Shown here: positions 18,141 through 34,598 of the stretch, in pieces
How the letters are laid out: each line of letters starts with the position of its first letter
Numbering within the stretch: the stretch's first letter is position 1
Source of the DNA: a bacterium
Lineage (GTDB): Bacteria > Bacteroidota > Bacteroidia > NS11-12g > UBA955
NCBI GenBank assembly: GCA_029945665.1
Contig: JAQSCZ010000010.1
Span: forward strand, 8,812-43,409
DNA: 34,598 nucleotides
Direction: 5' to 3'
Position numbers and translations under genes: made by a program
The notes under the pieces: model-generated
Databases searched by the model: none
Told to the model about the DNA's origin: nothing
What the model saw: only the letters and a program-made list of their open reading frames with translations

Positions 18141-18905
18141 ATGAACTCAAAACCAATTGCTTTAATTACCGGAGCTACCTCTGGAATTGGTAAGGCCTGT
18201 GCTGAACTGCTGGCAACCAATAACTTCCAATTAATTTTAACAGGACGAAGAACAGAAAGGTTAGTAGAATTGAAACAGAATTTAGAAAAACAATTTGCTA
18301 TAAAAGTTTTAATTTTAACACTCGATGTCAGAAATCGCGAGGCTGTTGAATTGGCTTTTTCAAGTTTGCCAAAGGAATGGCAAAGTATTGATGTATTAAT
18401 TAATAATGCTGGTTTAGCAATGGGCTTATCATCGATTGAAAATGGCAATATCGATCATTGGGATACGATGATAGATACCAATTTGAAAGGACTTTTATAC
18501 GTGACTAAAAATGTGGTTCCTTATATGATAGAGCACAAAAAAGGGCATATTGTAAATGTTGGCAGTATTGCAGGCAAAGAAGTGTATGCCAATGGCAATG
18601 TATATTGTGCCACCAAACATGCGGTAGATGCTTTGAATCGCAGTATGCGTTTGGATTTGAGCAAATATCCAATCAGGGTTTCTGCTATTCATCCAGGTGC
18701 TGTAGAAACAGAGTTTTCTGTTGTGAGATTTGAAGGCGATGAAGTGAGAGCAAAAACAGTATATGAAGGATTTGAAAATTTAGTTGCAACCGATGTGGCC
18801 GAAGCAGTATGGTTTATGCTCAATCGTCCTCCTCATGTTAACATCAATGAAATGACCATTATGCCAACTGCCCAACCAATGGCAGGGGTTATTAATAGGA
18901 AGTAG
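18141..18905 (+). CDS. Short-chain dehydrogenase/reductase, YdfG type
   Basis: 254 residues, a classical SDR. NADP-binding motif TGATSGIGKAC (about 10-20) with TGRRTER just after strand 2, which favours NADP(H); NNAGLAMG; catalytic Ser (VGSIAG), Tyr and Lys in YCATKHAVDALN; and HPGAVETEFSVVRF. This set matches the YdfG-like NADP-dependent 3-hydroxy acid (serine/threonine) dehydrogenase group. The N-terminus fits the ATG chosen. The exact substrate is uncertain, since many SDRs share these motifs. Single gene, followed by the palindrome array. Confidence 0.9.
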   Translation: MNSKPIALITGATSGIGKACAELLATNNFQLILTGRRTERLVELKQNLEKQFAIKVLILTLDVRNREAVELAFSSLPKEWQSIDVLINNAGLAMGLSSIENGNIDHWDTMIDTNLKGLLYVTKNVVPYMIEHKKGHIVNVGSIAGKEVYANGNVYCATKHAVDALNRSMRLDLSKYPIRVSAIHPGAVETEFSVVRFEGDEVRAKTVYEGFENLVATDVAEAVWFMLNRPPHVNINEMTIMPTAQPMAGVINRK

Positions 18906-19000
18906 GGGGTAGTAGGTTGGATTAAAAAATATAAAAAGCCTTTAACTTAAATGCTTCAAAAATACTATGACATAATAAATTGTTTTCTATTGAAGGGTTA

Positions 19001-20031
19001 TGAATTCTGAGTGGCTTCAATTTGAATCGCGTCATATAATCAATGCATATTTAACAAACAGCATTCAACCACTTTGTGGTTGTTCATACTTGGTTGTATT
19101 TTGTTATTCATATTAAATCCCTCCGGGATTTCTCAATAGCGCAAAAATTAACTTACAATGATTAACTTAATAGCTAAAATAATTTCAAAAATTAAAACAT
19201 TAAAAGAAGCCTGAAGGGCTTCAATCTGAATAACATCGGTGCAGCCGATGAGAATGAAATAACGTGGAGCCCCAACCCTGAAAGGGTTGAATGTTGTTTT
19301 TGGATTTCGGAAAAGCCAATTACAGCCTACAAAATGCCGCATTTTGAATCCTGAGCGGCTTCAATTTGAATCGCGTCATATAATCAATGCATATTTAACA
19401 AACAGCATTCAACCACTTTGTGGTTGTTCATACTTGGTTGTATTTTGTTATTCATATTAAATCCCTCCGGGATTTCTCAATAGCGCAAAAATTAACTTAC
19501 AATGATTAACTTAATAGCTAAAATAATTTCAAAAATTAAAACATTAAAAGAAGCCTGAAGGGCTTCAATCTGAATAACATCGGTGCAGCCGATGAGAATG
19601 AAATAACGTGGAGCCCCAACCCTGAAAGGGTTGAATGTTGTTTTTGGATTTCGGAAAAGCCAATTACAGCCTACAAAATGCCGCATTTTGAATCCTGAGC
19701 GGCTTCAATTTCAATCGCATCATTTAACCAATGCATATTTAACAAACAGCATTCAACCACTTTGTGGTTGTTCATACTTCGTTATATTTTGCTATTCATA
19801 TTAAATCCCTCCGGGATTTCTAAATAGCGCAAAAATTAACTTACAAAAATTAACTTAATTGCTATAGTAATTTCAAAAATCAAGATATTAAAAGAAGCCT
19901 GAAGGGCTTCAATCTGAATAACATCGGTGCAACCGATGCGAATGAAATAGCTTGGAACCCCAACCCTGAAAGGGTTGAATTCTGTTTTTGTGTTTGCAGA
20001 AAAGCCAATAATAGCCCGCAAAAAAGCCGCA
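19001..20031. repeat. Three tandem copies of a 344-bp unit, each with six 17-nt palindromes
   Basis: Copies lie at 19001-19344, 19345-19688 and 19689 to about 20031. By eye, copies 1 and 2 differ at only 2 positions; copy 3 differs at roughly 30-35. Each unit holds six palindromes with 6-nt arms and 5-nt loops. In copy 1 these are 19002-19018 (imperfect), 19066-19082 (CAACCACTTTGTGGTTG), 19115-19131 (AAATCCCTCCGGGATTT), 19206-19222 (GAAGCCTGAAGGGCTTC), 19234-19250 (CATCGGTGCAGCCGATG) and 19273-19289 (CAACCCTGAAAGGGTTG). In copy 3 the arms of the five perfect palindromes are unchanged and only one loop base differs. A 64-codon minus-strand ORF repeats in each unit but is not convincing as protein. 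The flanks 18906-19000 and 20032-20101 show nothing else. Confidence 0.92.
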
Positions 20032-20101
20032 AATTTATCTTGTTCGAAAGCGTAAACCTGCGGCCTAATATCTGTAAAATGTTATTTTGATTAACCTGTT
20101 C

Positions 20102-23792: not shown

Positions 23793-24662
23793 ATGAACAC
23801 AACAATAAGAATGGGAGGTGTGCCTGAGCATTTTAATTTTCCGTGGCAATTGGCACAAGATTATGGCTTTTTTACCAAAGAGAATATTGATTTCAAATGG
23901 TCGTTTTACAACGCAGGCACTGGTGCCATGGTAAAAGCATTGGAGGCAGGAGAATTAGACATGGCCATATTGTTGACAGAAGGTGCAGTATCTGCTATCA
24001 TCAAAGGATTGCAGGCAAAAATTGTAAAGCAATACATTACCTCGCCTCTCATTTGGGGTATCCATACAGGCAATCATTCGGGCCTCGAAAATATTGGAGC
24101 ATGTGAAGGTAAAAAGTACGCCATAAGTAGATTTGGGAGTGGAAGCCATTTAATGGCAATGATAGATGCCGAAGTGCGCAATAAAAAAATTGAAGAACAG
24201 GATTTTGTTTTGGTTGAAAATATGCCAGGTGCTATACAGTCCTTGGAAGCTAATTTGTCTCAAGTTTTTTTCTGGGAAAAATATACCACCAAGCCGAATG
24301 TCGATTCTGGACTTTTAAATAGGATTGGCGAGTTTATAACACCTTGGAGTTGTTTTCAAATTGTGGCATCTAATCAAATATTAGAGCAACATCCTGAAAA
24401 AGTGGAGGCCATTTTAAAGACCATTAATTTTACTTGTAAGCAATTCATGACCGCAGACAATAGCATTGATATGATACTGGCCAATTTTGATATGAAACCC
24501 GAAGATGCCTTGGCTTGGTTTTACAGCACTGAGTGGAATACGGATTACAACGTGAGTGAAAAAATGCTAGAAAATGTGATGTATTCGTTGAAGAAGATTG
24601 GGAATATAGAGAAAGAGGTGAAGCCAATTGATTTGGTAGACAAATTGGTCACATTAATTTAA
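23793..24662 (+). CDS. Substrate-binding-protein-fold protein without signal peptide
   Basis: 289 residues. It opens TIRMGGVPEHFNFPWQLAQDYGFF, then YNAGTGAMVKALEAGELDMAIL, KQYITSPLIWGIHTG, KYAISRFGSGSHLMAMIDA and EANLSQVFFWEKYTT, matching the NMT1/SsuA-like periplasmic-binding fold as found in many Bacteroidota. No signal peptide or lipobox exists, and no permease or ATPase is nearby, so it probably acts in the cytoplasm as an enzyme or binding protein, as MqnA/MqnD do in menaquinone synthesis; it lacks the CCCFC motif of THI5. Ligand unknown. The last 94 codons are duplicated at 28004-28286. Confidence 0.8.
   Translation: MNTTIRMGGVPEHFNFPWQLAQDYGFFTKENIDFKWSFYNAGTGAMVKALEAGELDMAILLTEGAVSAIIKGLQAKIVKQYITSPLIWGIHTGNHSGLENIGACEGKKYAISRFGSGSHLMAMIDAEVRNKKIEEQDFVLVENMPGAIQSLEANLSQVFFWEKYTTKPNVDSGLLNRIGEFITPWSCFQIVASNQILEQHPEKVEAILKTINFTCKQFMTADNSIDMILANFDMKPEDALAWFYSTEWNTDYNVSEKMLENVMYSLKKIGNIEKEVKPIDLVDKLVTLI
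24355..24637 (+). repeat. Direct repeat, copy A: 3' end of the substrate-binding-fold gene
   Basis: 283 bp matching 28004-28286 without gaps at a constant offset of 3649 bp, with about 10 substitutions by eye. Both ends of the similarity are sharp. Confidence 0.92.
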
Positions 24663-27984: not shown

Positions 27985-28311
27985 ATGGAATTAAATTATT
28001 TGATTCAAATTGTGGCATCGAATCAAATATTAGAGCAACATCCTGAAAAAGTGGAAGCCATTTTAAAGACCATTAATTTTACTTGTAAGCAATTCATGAC
28101 CGCAGACAATAGCATTGATATGATACTGGCCAATTTTGACATGAAACCCGAAGATGCTTTGGCTTGGTTTTACAGCACCGAGTGGAATACGGATTACAAA
28201 GTGAGCGAAAAAATGTTAGAAAATGTGATGTATTCGTTGAAGAAGATTGGAAATATAGTGAAAGAGGTGAAGCCAATTGATTTGGTTTGGGACATGGTGA
28301 GTCTTAAATAG
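27985..28311 (+). pseudogene. Truncated duplicate of the substrate-binding-fold gene (C-terminal third only)
   Basis: An open frame of 108 codons: about 7 unrelated N-terminal codons (MELNYLI) joined to the C-terminal 94 residues of the protein encoded at 23793-24662, then a different short tail. Eight of the ten substitutions against copy A are silent; the other two change Asn to Lys and Glu to Val. It lacks the first lobe of the binding fold and the ligand cleft, so it is unlikely to function. The silent bias suggests the copy descends from an intact homologue that diverged under selection before truncation. Confidence 0.8.
28004..28286 (+). repeat. Direct repeat, copy B
   Basis: Matches 24355-24637 over 283 bp in the same orientation. 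The 3.4 kb between the copies contains the T9SS cargo gene, the Cys-rich secreted protein gene and the nested inverted repeats. Confidence 0.92.
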
Positions 28312-33314: not shown

Positions 33315-33740
33315 ATGGGTTACGAAGTACATGTAGTAAGAAGAAATGATTTTGATAATTATGAAGAGGAATCAAATATAAGCATTCAAGAATGGAAGCA
33401 ATTAGTTGACACGTTTCCTGAACTAACTTGGGAGCAATTTGAAGGTGATACAAAGGTGTTAGATTATGAATATTCTTATTGGTTGGCCCATCCCGAAATA
33501 GATGAAAGCAACAGACCTTGGTTTCAATATTACAAAGGTACTATCTGCACAAAATGGGCAGATCCCGCTTGTCTTAAATTGTTATTAATGATGGCTGAAC
33601 ATTTGAATGCAAGGCTTGTTGGCGATGAGGGTGAGCAGTATACTATGAAGGAAATAAATAGATTGGAAGCGAACAGTAAATCGAGGTCTTCATCAACAGC
33701 TACTAATAAGAACAAGAAACCTTTTTGGAAGTTTTGGTAA
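33315..33740 (+). CDS. Hypothetical protein
   Basis: 141 residues from the ATG giving MGYEVHVVRRNDFDNYEEES; a TTG three codons upstream is not needed. The N-terminal 95 residues look like a compact acidic alpha/beta domain (SIQEWKQLVDTFPELTW, YWLAHPEIDES, PWFQYYKGTICTKWADPA, KLLLMMAEHLNARLVGDEGEQY). The tail is Lys/Ser/Asn-rich and ends KKPFWKFW. I recall similar 'GYEVHVVR' proteins as conserved hypotheticals in Bacteroidota but know no function. No signal or membrane helix. It is followed at once by REP-like palindromes and the transposase. Confidence 0.65.
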   Translation: MGYEVHVVRRNDFDNYEEESNISIQEWKQLVDTFPELTWEQFEGDTKVLDYEYSYWLAHPEIDESNRPWFQYYKGTICTKWADPACLKLLLMMAEHLNARLVGDEGEQYTMKEINRLEANSKSRSSSTATNKNKKPFWKFW

Positions 33741-33759
33741 AACAACCACGATTCATAAC

Positions 33760-33829
33760 CGACCCTGAAAGGGTCGTATACATGTAGCCTTGATATAACA
33801 GATATGATCCCCGACCCCGAAGGCGGTCG
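33760..33829. repeat. Two REP-like palindromes upstream of the Y1 transposase
   Basis: CGACCCTGAAAGGGTCG (33760-33776, perfect, 6-nt arms and 5-nt loop) and CGACCCCGAAGGCGGTCG (33812-33829, imperfect). A GTAG tetranucleotide lies between them (in catGTAGcc, near 33784). Confidence 0.85.
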
Positions 33830-33890
33830 CATATTAATTATTTCACAAAATTTATAATAAACATATTCAAAATTTATAAATTTGTCAAAT

Positions 33891-34376
33891 ATGTCAGGAA
33901 CGTTTTCTAAAATATACATTCAAATTGTATTTGCGGTTCAAGGTCGAAGATCGCTAATAAATCAGTCTTGGGAAGATGAATTATACAAATACATAACTGG
34001 AACAATAACAAATAAACAACAGAAATTATTAGCTATTAATGGTATGCCAGATCATGTTCATATTTTAATTGGAATGAAACCTTCTTGTTGCTTATCTGAT
34101 TTGGTAAGAGAGATTAAAAAATCTTCAAACGATTTTATTTGCGAGAAAAATTTTTGTAGAGGAAATTTTAATTGGCAGGAAGGATTTGGAGCTTTTTCAT
34201 ACAGTCCAAATGATTTGAATCGTGTAATAACCTATATACAAAATCAAAAAACACATCATCAAAAAAGTATGTTTAAGGATGAGTATCATACAATGCTTTC
34301 AGAGTTCGAGATAGATTTCAAAGAGGAGTATTTATTCGAATGGATAGACGATAACCCTCTCGACCACAATGCTTAG
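33891..34376 (+). CDS. Y1/HUH transposase, REP-associated (RAYT-like, IS200/IS605 superfamily)
   Basis: 161 residues from the ATG giving MSGTFSKIYIQIVFAVQGR; a TTG three codons upstream is not needed. The catalytic parts are complete: HUH motif in NGMPDHVHILIG (His55, His57) and the candidate nucleophile Tyr115 in RVITYIQNQKTHHQK. WQEGFGAFSYS is typical of the Bacteroidota IS200-like group. Such single-strand transposases nick and join DNA at hairpins. No TnpB-like gene is nearby, and flanking palindromes in opposite orientations with GTAG tetranucleotides fit a domesticated REP-associated enzyme rather than a simple IS200. Start codon, length and motifs indicate an intact gene. Confidence 0.92.
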   Translation: MSGTFSKIYIQIVFAVQGRRSLINQSWEDELYKYITGTITNKQQKLLAINGMPDHVHILIGMKPSCCLSDLVREIKKSSNDFICEKNFCRGNFNWQEGFGAFSYSPNDLNRVITYIQNQKTHHQKSMFKDEYHTMLSEFEIDFKEEYLFEWIDDNPLDHNA

Positions 34377-34385
34377 ATGAATATA

Positions 34386-34403
34386 CGACCACCTTCGGGG
34401 TCG
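34386..34403. repeat. Inverted REP-like palindrome just after the transposase
   Basis: CGACCACCTTCGGGGTCG is the reverse complement, with one change, of the palindrome at 33812-33829. The transposase gene is therefore bracketed by REP-like elements in opposite orientation. Confidence 0.8.
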
Positions 34404-34420
34404 TTTCATGTTATATGACT

Positions 34421-34598
34421 GTTTCCATGACCCCGAAGGCGGTCGAATCATTGTAGCTGCGGTCGAATCATTGTAGCAAAATATCATCATGTTTCCACGA
34501 CCCCGAAGGCGGTCGAATCATTGTAGCTGCGGTCGAATCGTTGTAGATAAAATACCATCATATTTCCACGACCCCGAAGGCGGTCGAATCATTGTAGC
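34421..34598. repeat. 70-71-bp tandem repeat containing REP-like palindromes, cut by the window end
   Basis: Units begin at 34421, 34491 and 34562. Each starts with a TTTCCAYGA segment joined to a CCCCGAAGGCGGTCG palindrome (34428-34445, 34498-34515, 34569-34586), then AATCATTGTAGC. The second half of the palindrome and its GTAG tail is repeated (CTGCGGTCGAATCATTGTAG) within the first two units. The array continues past the window. Confidence 0.88.

Follow-up and report, generated by a model that had tools for sequence, protein, structure and literature searches.

The closest described systems to the locus reported here are the IS200/IS605 elements and the REPtrons, in which a TnpA-REP (RAYT) enzyme accompanies REP, REPIN or BIME palindromes. 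One account of the biochemistry of both states that single strands are recognised by the enzyme in folded form and that cleavage sites are selected through a short stretch 5' of the palindrome (PMC8266576). For the TnpA-Y1 enzymes of subclass 1.2, the published table gives ‘no’ under REP, and the text describes the subclass as ‘generally’ without typical IS200 end structures; the automatic REP search in the same study required GTAG/GTGG (Quentin 2018, PMC6006769). Short palindromic repeats tagged with GTAG or CGTC are also described, the CGTC type being reported from Bacteroidetes (Di Nocera 2013, PMC3733652). In the open-licence literature, we found no tie between a repeat family of the kind described below and subclass-1.2 transposases.

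The window, by which we mean the whole stretch of 34,598 nucleotides analysed here, contains an array that probably consists of three tandem non-coding hairpin units of an IS200-like element lacking its transposase gene at this site, with a subclass-1.2 TnpA-Y1 (HuH, Y---Q--HH) as the cognate enzyme. Its parts are given below, together with a second transposase gene in the window; E values come from R1, a covariance model of the tag-hairpin cassette.

19001-19344, plus strand: unit copy 1 of the transposase-less element, from the repeat finder and the alignment of copies.
19345-19688, plus strand: unit copy 2.
19689-20031, plus strand: unit copy 3, diverged, with its last ~37 nt passing into flanking DNA.
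19066-19082, repeated at 19410-19426 and 19754-19770, no strand: hairpin H1 (CAACCAC-TTT-GTGGTTG).
19084-19132, repeated at 19428-19476 and 19772-19820, plus strand: plus cassette, with a decayed H2, the TATTCANATT tag and H3 (19115-19131); R1 E ~3e-7.
19205-19251, repeated at 19549-19595 and 19893-19940, minus strand: minus cassette, with H3' (19206-19222), the tag and H2' (19234-19250); R1 E 7e-8 to 8e-9.
19273-19289, repeated at 19617-19633 and 19961-19977, no strand: hairpin H1' (CAACCCT-GAA-AGGGTTG).
19330-19346 and 19674-19690, no strand: junction palindrome CAAAATGCCGCATTTTG, in copies 1 and 2 only.
33897-34376, plus strand: second subclass-1.2 Y1 transposase gene, 14 kb away and outside the array, of the same enzyme group and with its own, different palindromes.

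A preliminary description of this DNA, made from its letters, had proposed a 344-bp array in which only the palindromes are conserved. Tandem Repeats Finder bears out the period and the copy number (3.0 copies at 19001-20031, as assembled in a draft of 126 contigs), and copies 1 and 2, estimated to differ at about two positions, differ at exactly two (unit positions 6 and 12). Copy 3 is more diverged than the 30-35 differences first suggested, with 50 relative to copy 2; 25 of these fall in unit 1-307 and the other 25 in 308-344, where copy 3 leaves the repeat. Five 6-5-6 palindromes, at unit positions 66, 115, 206, 234 and 273, are common to all three copies, whereas the sixth that had been ascribed to every copy (CAAAATGCCGCATTTTG, unit position 330) lies across the junction between units and is missing from copy 3. 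The estimate that palindromes make up about 30% of the unit is accordingly right when the sixth is counted and too high for the five kept in all copies, which make up 25%. The claim that a single change falls within a palindrome holds for unit 1-307 (1 of the 25 differences there, at position 244, with P 0.002 in a hypergeometric test); this G-to-A change replaces a T-G pair by T-A, so that the stem grows from 6 to 7 bp. Restricting conservation to the palindromes was too strong, however, as the tags between them are conserved as well. With Watson-Crick pairs only, a 7-bp stem with a 3-nt loop is present in three of the five palindromes in copies 1 and 2 and in four of five in copy 3, and the array holds 10 of the 15 hairpins in the window that have a stem of at least 7, a loop of 3-5 and at least three G/C.

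No open reading frame of 80 or more codons overlaps the array, and no Y1 gene lies in 18906-20101, so the intact TnpA by which an IS200/IS605 element is recognised is absent from the array itself. By eye, the left flank (18906-19010) seemed to contain what is left of a transposase, but the resemblance was no better than in shuffles. The window contains no tRNA. Around the second transposase gene (33740-34598, continued in L035 1-210), palindromes of a different kind precede the gene, and a 70-bp tandem array (CGACCCCGAAGGCGGTCG...) follows it and reaches a scaffold gap of 100 N at the end of the window. Elsewhere in the window, ~100 C-terminal residues of the frame at 23793-24662 recur nearly unchanged ~3.3 kb downstream as a 108-aa open reading frame (27985-28311).

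Searching the genome at the DNA level with the 344-bp unit yields mainly close copies. On contig C55, parts of the unit at 92-93% identity flank an open 147-aa Y1 transposase gene, with H3'-H2'-H1' upstream and H1-H3 downstream, and an adjoining shortened copy has lost all of the gene but its final 28 codons (C55:1215-1298, residues 120-147). Hairpins H1 and H1' of the window are the counterparts, respectively, of the first hairpin 3' of the transposase gene and of the hairpin directly upstream of it in relatives. Moreover, R1 matches each 344-bp unit twice, once per orientation (E 3e-7 to 8e-9). Thus, each unit joins two half-ends in mirror arrangement, H1-(H2)-tag-H3 and H3'-tag-H2'-H1', with the gene missing and H2 of the plus side decayed.

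Cassettes of this type are dispersed. R1 has at least 40 matches in this genome (E <= 0.01), on 12 contigs and at 13 sites, a lower bound because 150 of 2309 first-look candidates were scored. Among the matches listed, 37 lie more than 1 kb from a transposase gene and three, all on C55, lie within 1 kb. Outside contigs C10 and C55 there are 31 matches; 27 of the 28 examined are intergenic, and one is in a 105-aa open reading frame on the opposite strand. Tandem arrays make up several of the sites, the periods being 63, 110, 112, 132 and 585 bp. An exact H3-cassette pattern had suggested a non-dispersed family (5 sites here; 4 of 59 genomes), a result overturned by the covariance model. The genome-wide check of arm changes put forward in the preliminary description gives the outcome expected of a structural element: dispersed copies show paired changes, with 13 of 15 pairs changed on both sides among 39 distinct copies, the window's included. 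In this alignment, which was fitted to the R1 model and leans towards structure, 93.9% of cells are paired and the covariation score is 0.42 vs 0.14. Two further kinds of repeat were seen in passing. An 11-copy array of 112 bp on contig C36 (L025 2256-3490) has cassette-like hairpin pairs in each unit, with TATAGATATT in place of TATTCANNTT, perhaps a variant of the tag. The arrays in L253 (~1558-1588 and ~2150-2175) and L252 (~1551-1581, ~2193-2215 and ~2750-2775) are accompanied by an adjacent palindrome, ACATACC...GGTATGT, whose runs of A and T give it the look of a terminator working in both directions; imperfect versions occur in L255, L025 and L024.

The same site in related genomes connects the array to a transposase. 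We searched 17 genomes of the genus for the orthologous site; in 12 of these, the best matches to the flanking SDR and cytochrome-c peroxidase genes were on different contigs, and the comparison covers the rest. In G006 and G005, the region between the two genes holds a Y1 transposase gene followed by these palindromes, whereas G011 has no element there, only ~150 bp separating the two genes. Together with the window, these genomes present one site in three states: gene plus hairpins, empty, and hairpins only. G011 may have lost the element instead of never having had it. In G014, the transposase gene and palindromes adjoin the peroxidase gene, and the SDR gene is 5.5 kb further on. The transposase gene has one internal stop in G005 and is open in G006, in G014 and at C55.

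What kind of enzyme is this? The proteins match Pfam Y1_Tnp in four of four cases and score above the cut-off of the NCBIfam IS200/IS605 model (NF033573) in five of five, whereas the RAYT model gives the same five only 24-34 bits against a cut-off of 80. They also match solved TnpA chains in the PDB, among them that of IS608 and others, some of which are from ISDra2. For a broader view, we used 104 loci, comprising the best 80 of 230 confirmed relatives, from one genome-contig scan of Bacteroidota and a few other phyla, and 24 of the 30 loci from the window's own order (omitted were L118, L119 and L121, which are L039, L038 and L040; L120, the genome's own C55 gene; L125; and L143). Among these 104, DH[VIL]H is present in 94, WQ in 101 and Y---Q--HH in 103 (the exception is L096), and the class-2 motif Y---NP is in none. 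The motifs DH[IV]H, WQ and Y---Q--HH, with a length of ~148 aa, thus assign the enzyme of the relatives to subclass 1.2, in line with the published description of that subclass (DH[VI]H, WQ, Y---Q--HH, ~150 aa, Bacteroidetes; Quentin 2018, PMC6006769). Some close enzyme relatives come from records named Cloacimonadota (L050), Hydrogenedentota (L102), Neomarinimicrobiota (L104) and Melioribacter (Ignavibacteriota; L077), which suggests horizontal spread or binning errors; L050, L102 and L077, but not L104, carry tag-anchored hairpins.

Hairpins crowd around these genes. With a hairpin defined by a stem of at least 7 and a loop of 3-5, the 46.1 kb that lie no more than 300 nt from the gene at the best 80 of 230 loci contain 276 hairpins, vs 64 in the 239 kb more than 1200 nt away; 100 dinucleotide shuffles of the near regions give a mean of 4.6 and a maximum of 12, and the far intergenic control has 1.0 hairpins/kb. 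Contrary to the published entry for subclass 1.2 (PMC6006769), at least one hairpin lies within 300 nt in 73 of the 75 loci from this set that have both flanks present, and 49 of the 75 have hairpins on both sides; L067 and L079 have none in either flank over that distance. The 24 further loci from the window's own order are poorer in hairpins (31 in 14.3 kb near vs 4 in 25.8 kb far), with 14 having a hairpin and 10 having none. The typical order is mirrored, H3'-H2'-H1'-gene-H1-H2-H3, although single hairpins are often absent, and (C/T)TATTCAnnTT lies between H2 and H3.

The tag and the hairpins are in register with one another. Taking the first tag within 250 nt on each side irrespective of pairing, and counting as a hairpin at least 6 of 7 pairs, we found a hairpin at a fixed distance in 34 of 45 cases downstream and 35 of 43 upstream, vs shuffled means of 0.6-0.7; this test was run on the 104 loci, and its counts rest almost wholly on L038-L117, with one row (L139) from the order set. 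At least one tag-anchored hairpin lies within 700 nt in 58 of the best 80 of 230 loci and in the other 22 there is none over that distance. In 48 cassettes drawn from tags within 350 nt of the same 80 loci, 14 of 15 pairs have changed on both sides (168 cells), and the covariation score is 0.62 vs 0.19 when shuffled and <=0.09 when slid. The percentage of paired cells in this alignment is inflated because rows were chosen for at least six pairs per hairpin; the anchor test is its unfiltered counterpart. G-T pairs occupy 12 of 469 paired cells (pairs 2-7, unfiltered rows) vs 39 G-T cells when the 3' letters are reshuffled, and this rarity points to a palindrome at the DNA level more than to RNA.

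These properties overlap with those of known systems without coinciding with any. As in REPtrons (PMC6006769 and PMC8266576, as far as these describe them), a Y1 HuH gene lies between small palindromes arranged in inverted pairs, copies are dispersed between genes (at least 40 R1 matches in this genome) and form tandem clusters, and a short conserved tag adjoins the hairpins. By contrast, the REPtron enzymes are described as class 2 (Y---NP), whereas the enzyme here is class 1 (Y---Q--HH). Nor are the feet of the hairpins enriched in GTAG/GTGG, a tag that 4 of 277 hairpins carry at a distance of 0-2 nt from either foot, vs 157 of 5000 random spans and no palindrome in the window (the total of 277, against 276 above, is taken to reflect the skipping of flanks under 30 nt in the flank count). 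The constant TATTCAnnTT, placed between two hairpins with up to three different hairpins per side, is a further difference from REPtrons. Of the features of canonical REPs, the family thus has palindromes foldable on one strand and dispersed extragenic copies, and lacks the GTAG/GTGG 5' foot and a cognate class-2 TnpA-REP (Y---NP); as in REPINs and BIMEs, each 344-bp unit has one plus and one minus cassette. With IS200/IS605 elements such as IS608 and ISDra2, it shares the catalytic family and hairpins at both ends, but its two ends nearly mirror each other, each bears several hairpins, and tandem units without the gene are also present. Like the GTAG/CGTC-tagged repeats as reported (PMC3733652), it consists of short palindromes with a tag, but neither of those tags is at the foot of any palindrome in the window, and CGTC is at the foot of 2 of 277 hairpins near enzyme genes.

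Repeat and enzyme also occur together across genomes. Among 296 genomes of the phylum, 36 have an R1 match (E <= 1e-3) and 133 a match to the enzyme profile (E <= 1e-10). All 24 genomes with R1 at E <= 1e-5 are enzyme-positive vs 109 of 272 others (Fisher P 1e-9, in a test that treats related genomes as independent), as are all 18 with at least five R1 matches; at E <= 1e-3, the enzyme is present in 30 of 36 and absent in G147, G195, G210, G211, G293 and G305. Species used to build R1 possibly recur among the 296 genomes. In G369, G318, G310, G373 and G123, for example, cassettes lie within ~130 nt on either side of the enzyme gene, minus on the left and plus on the right. Under strict filters, with 20 candidates scored per genome, 109 of the 133 enzyme-positive genomes have no R1 match at E <= 1e-5, and R1 therefore seems to be the tag type of one clade, not of the whole subclass. 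In the enzyme tree, which has few columns and a bootstrap that has not settled, a single clade of 83 rows, strongly supported, takes in every one of the 58 tag-positive loci; the tag is in 0 of 21 rows of the other clade, where hairpins are fewer and different (for example, CGACCCC-ttc-GGGGTCG).

Several other origins for the array deserve consideration. It could be a by-product of mutation, with template-switch (quasipalindrome) correction keeping the hairpins perfect, slippage generating the array and no enzyme now acting. Perfect stems with few G-T pairs, the recent duplication of copies 1 and 2, and the genome's further tandem arrays (periods from 63 to 585 bp) would all be expected, but such correction accounts neither for the constancy of the TATTCAnnTT tag nor for the hairpins' recurring order and their placement about the transposase, and we regard this origin as unlikely.

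It is quite unlikely that the hairpins act instead in transcripts, as structured RNAs or bidirectional terminators serving in termination or mRNA end protection, with an incidental or secondary link to the transposase. Compensatory changes fit RNA equally well, 27 of the 28 examined sites lie between genes, and two other arrays have an adjacent ACATACC...GGTATGT palindrome with T runs. In addition, when 18900-20101 is scanned with a terminator consensus, nine sites score as terminator-like vs 1.0 in shuffles; every one of them lies in the array, with H1 and H3' read on the minus strand and H1' on the plus strand in every copy. However, the sequence trailing H1 and H1' is no more than T-rich and is interrupted (AATGTTGTTT), this tail is not kept in the family, and H1' in relatives is mostly followed by A-rich letters, so the likeness to terminators may be a side effect. 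The rarity of G-T pairs and the lack of any Rfam match in the window at the gathering threshold also argue against a role in RNA, which would leave the mirrored placement about the transposase gene and the co-occurrence unexplained. The structured RNA entertained in the preliminary description has thus become less likely, even with nine terminator-like hairpins in its favour.

In E. coli, REPs serve as binding sites for gyrase, IHF and Pol I. That the array binds a nucleoid or regulatory protein, the remaining option of the preliminary description, is nevertheless very unlikely, as variation in arm sequence between hairpins would argue against a sequence-specific duplex binder, for all that the array comprises intergenic tandem inverted repeats and that REPs, in one account (PMC8266576), are thought to acquire host roles.

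The best reading of the hairpins, their tag and compensatory variation, their tight placement at the gene, their dispersal and their co-occurrence with the enzyme is a REP/BIME-like family that subclass-1.2 transposases would process, working like a REPtron and not like a canonical REP. A REP/BIME-like element with a Y1 transposase was among the options first listed, and it is now well supported by cassettes flanking the Y1 genes of relatives, at this same site among others, and by the paired arm changes of dispersed copies; mobilisation is what we infer from them. By analogy with IS200/IS605 elements and REPtrons, the enzyme would bind the hairpins on single-stranded DNA, and the constant tag next to them could serve as guide or cleavage site. 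Candidate guides are the letters before H3 (nnTT in 48 of 48 cassettes, mostly nATT) and before H1 (mostly nATT), with TATTCA as the candidate cleavage region. The enzyme could then copy or excise units as in those systems, and the pair of plus and minus cassettes would be the mobile unit. Tandem gene-less units could arise through deletion of the gene together with strand-transfer or slippage between repeated hairpins, and would represent a non-autonomous form that the open C55 enzyme could move in trans.

More broadly, we lean slightly towards the proposal that the whole of subclass 1.2, thought to be partnerless, has a phylum-wide repeat composed of mirrored multi-hairpin half-ends with a constant, single-stranded TATTCAnnTT tag, and that the REPtron lifestyle arose independently in class 1, gene-less tandem units being the main mobile form there. 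A named but unexplained enzyme subclass gains a likely DNA substrate and an exact, testable motif, and a single site offers a ladder from empty, through gene plus hairpins, to hairpins only. The family may account for intergenic hairpin arrays in 24 to 36 of the 296 sampled Bacteroidota genomes, and it suggests that domestication of Y1 enzymes into repeat-spreading systems has taken place in class 1 as well as in class 2.
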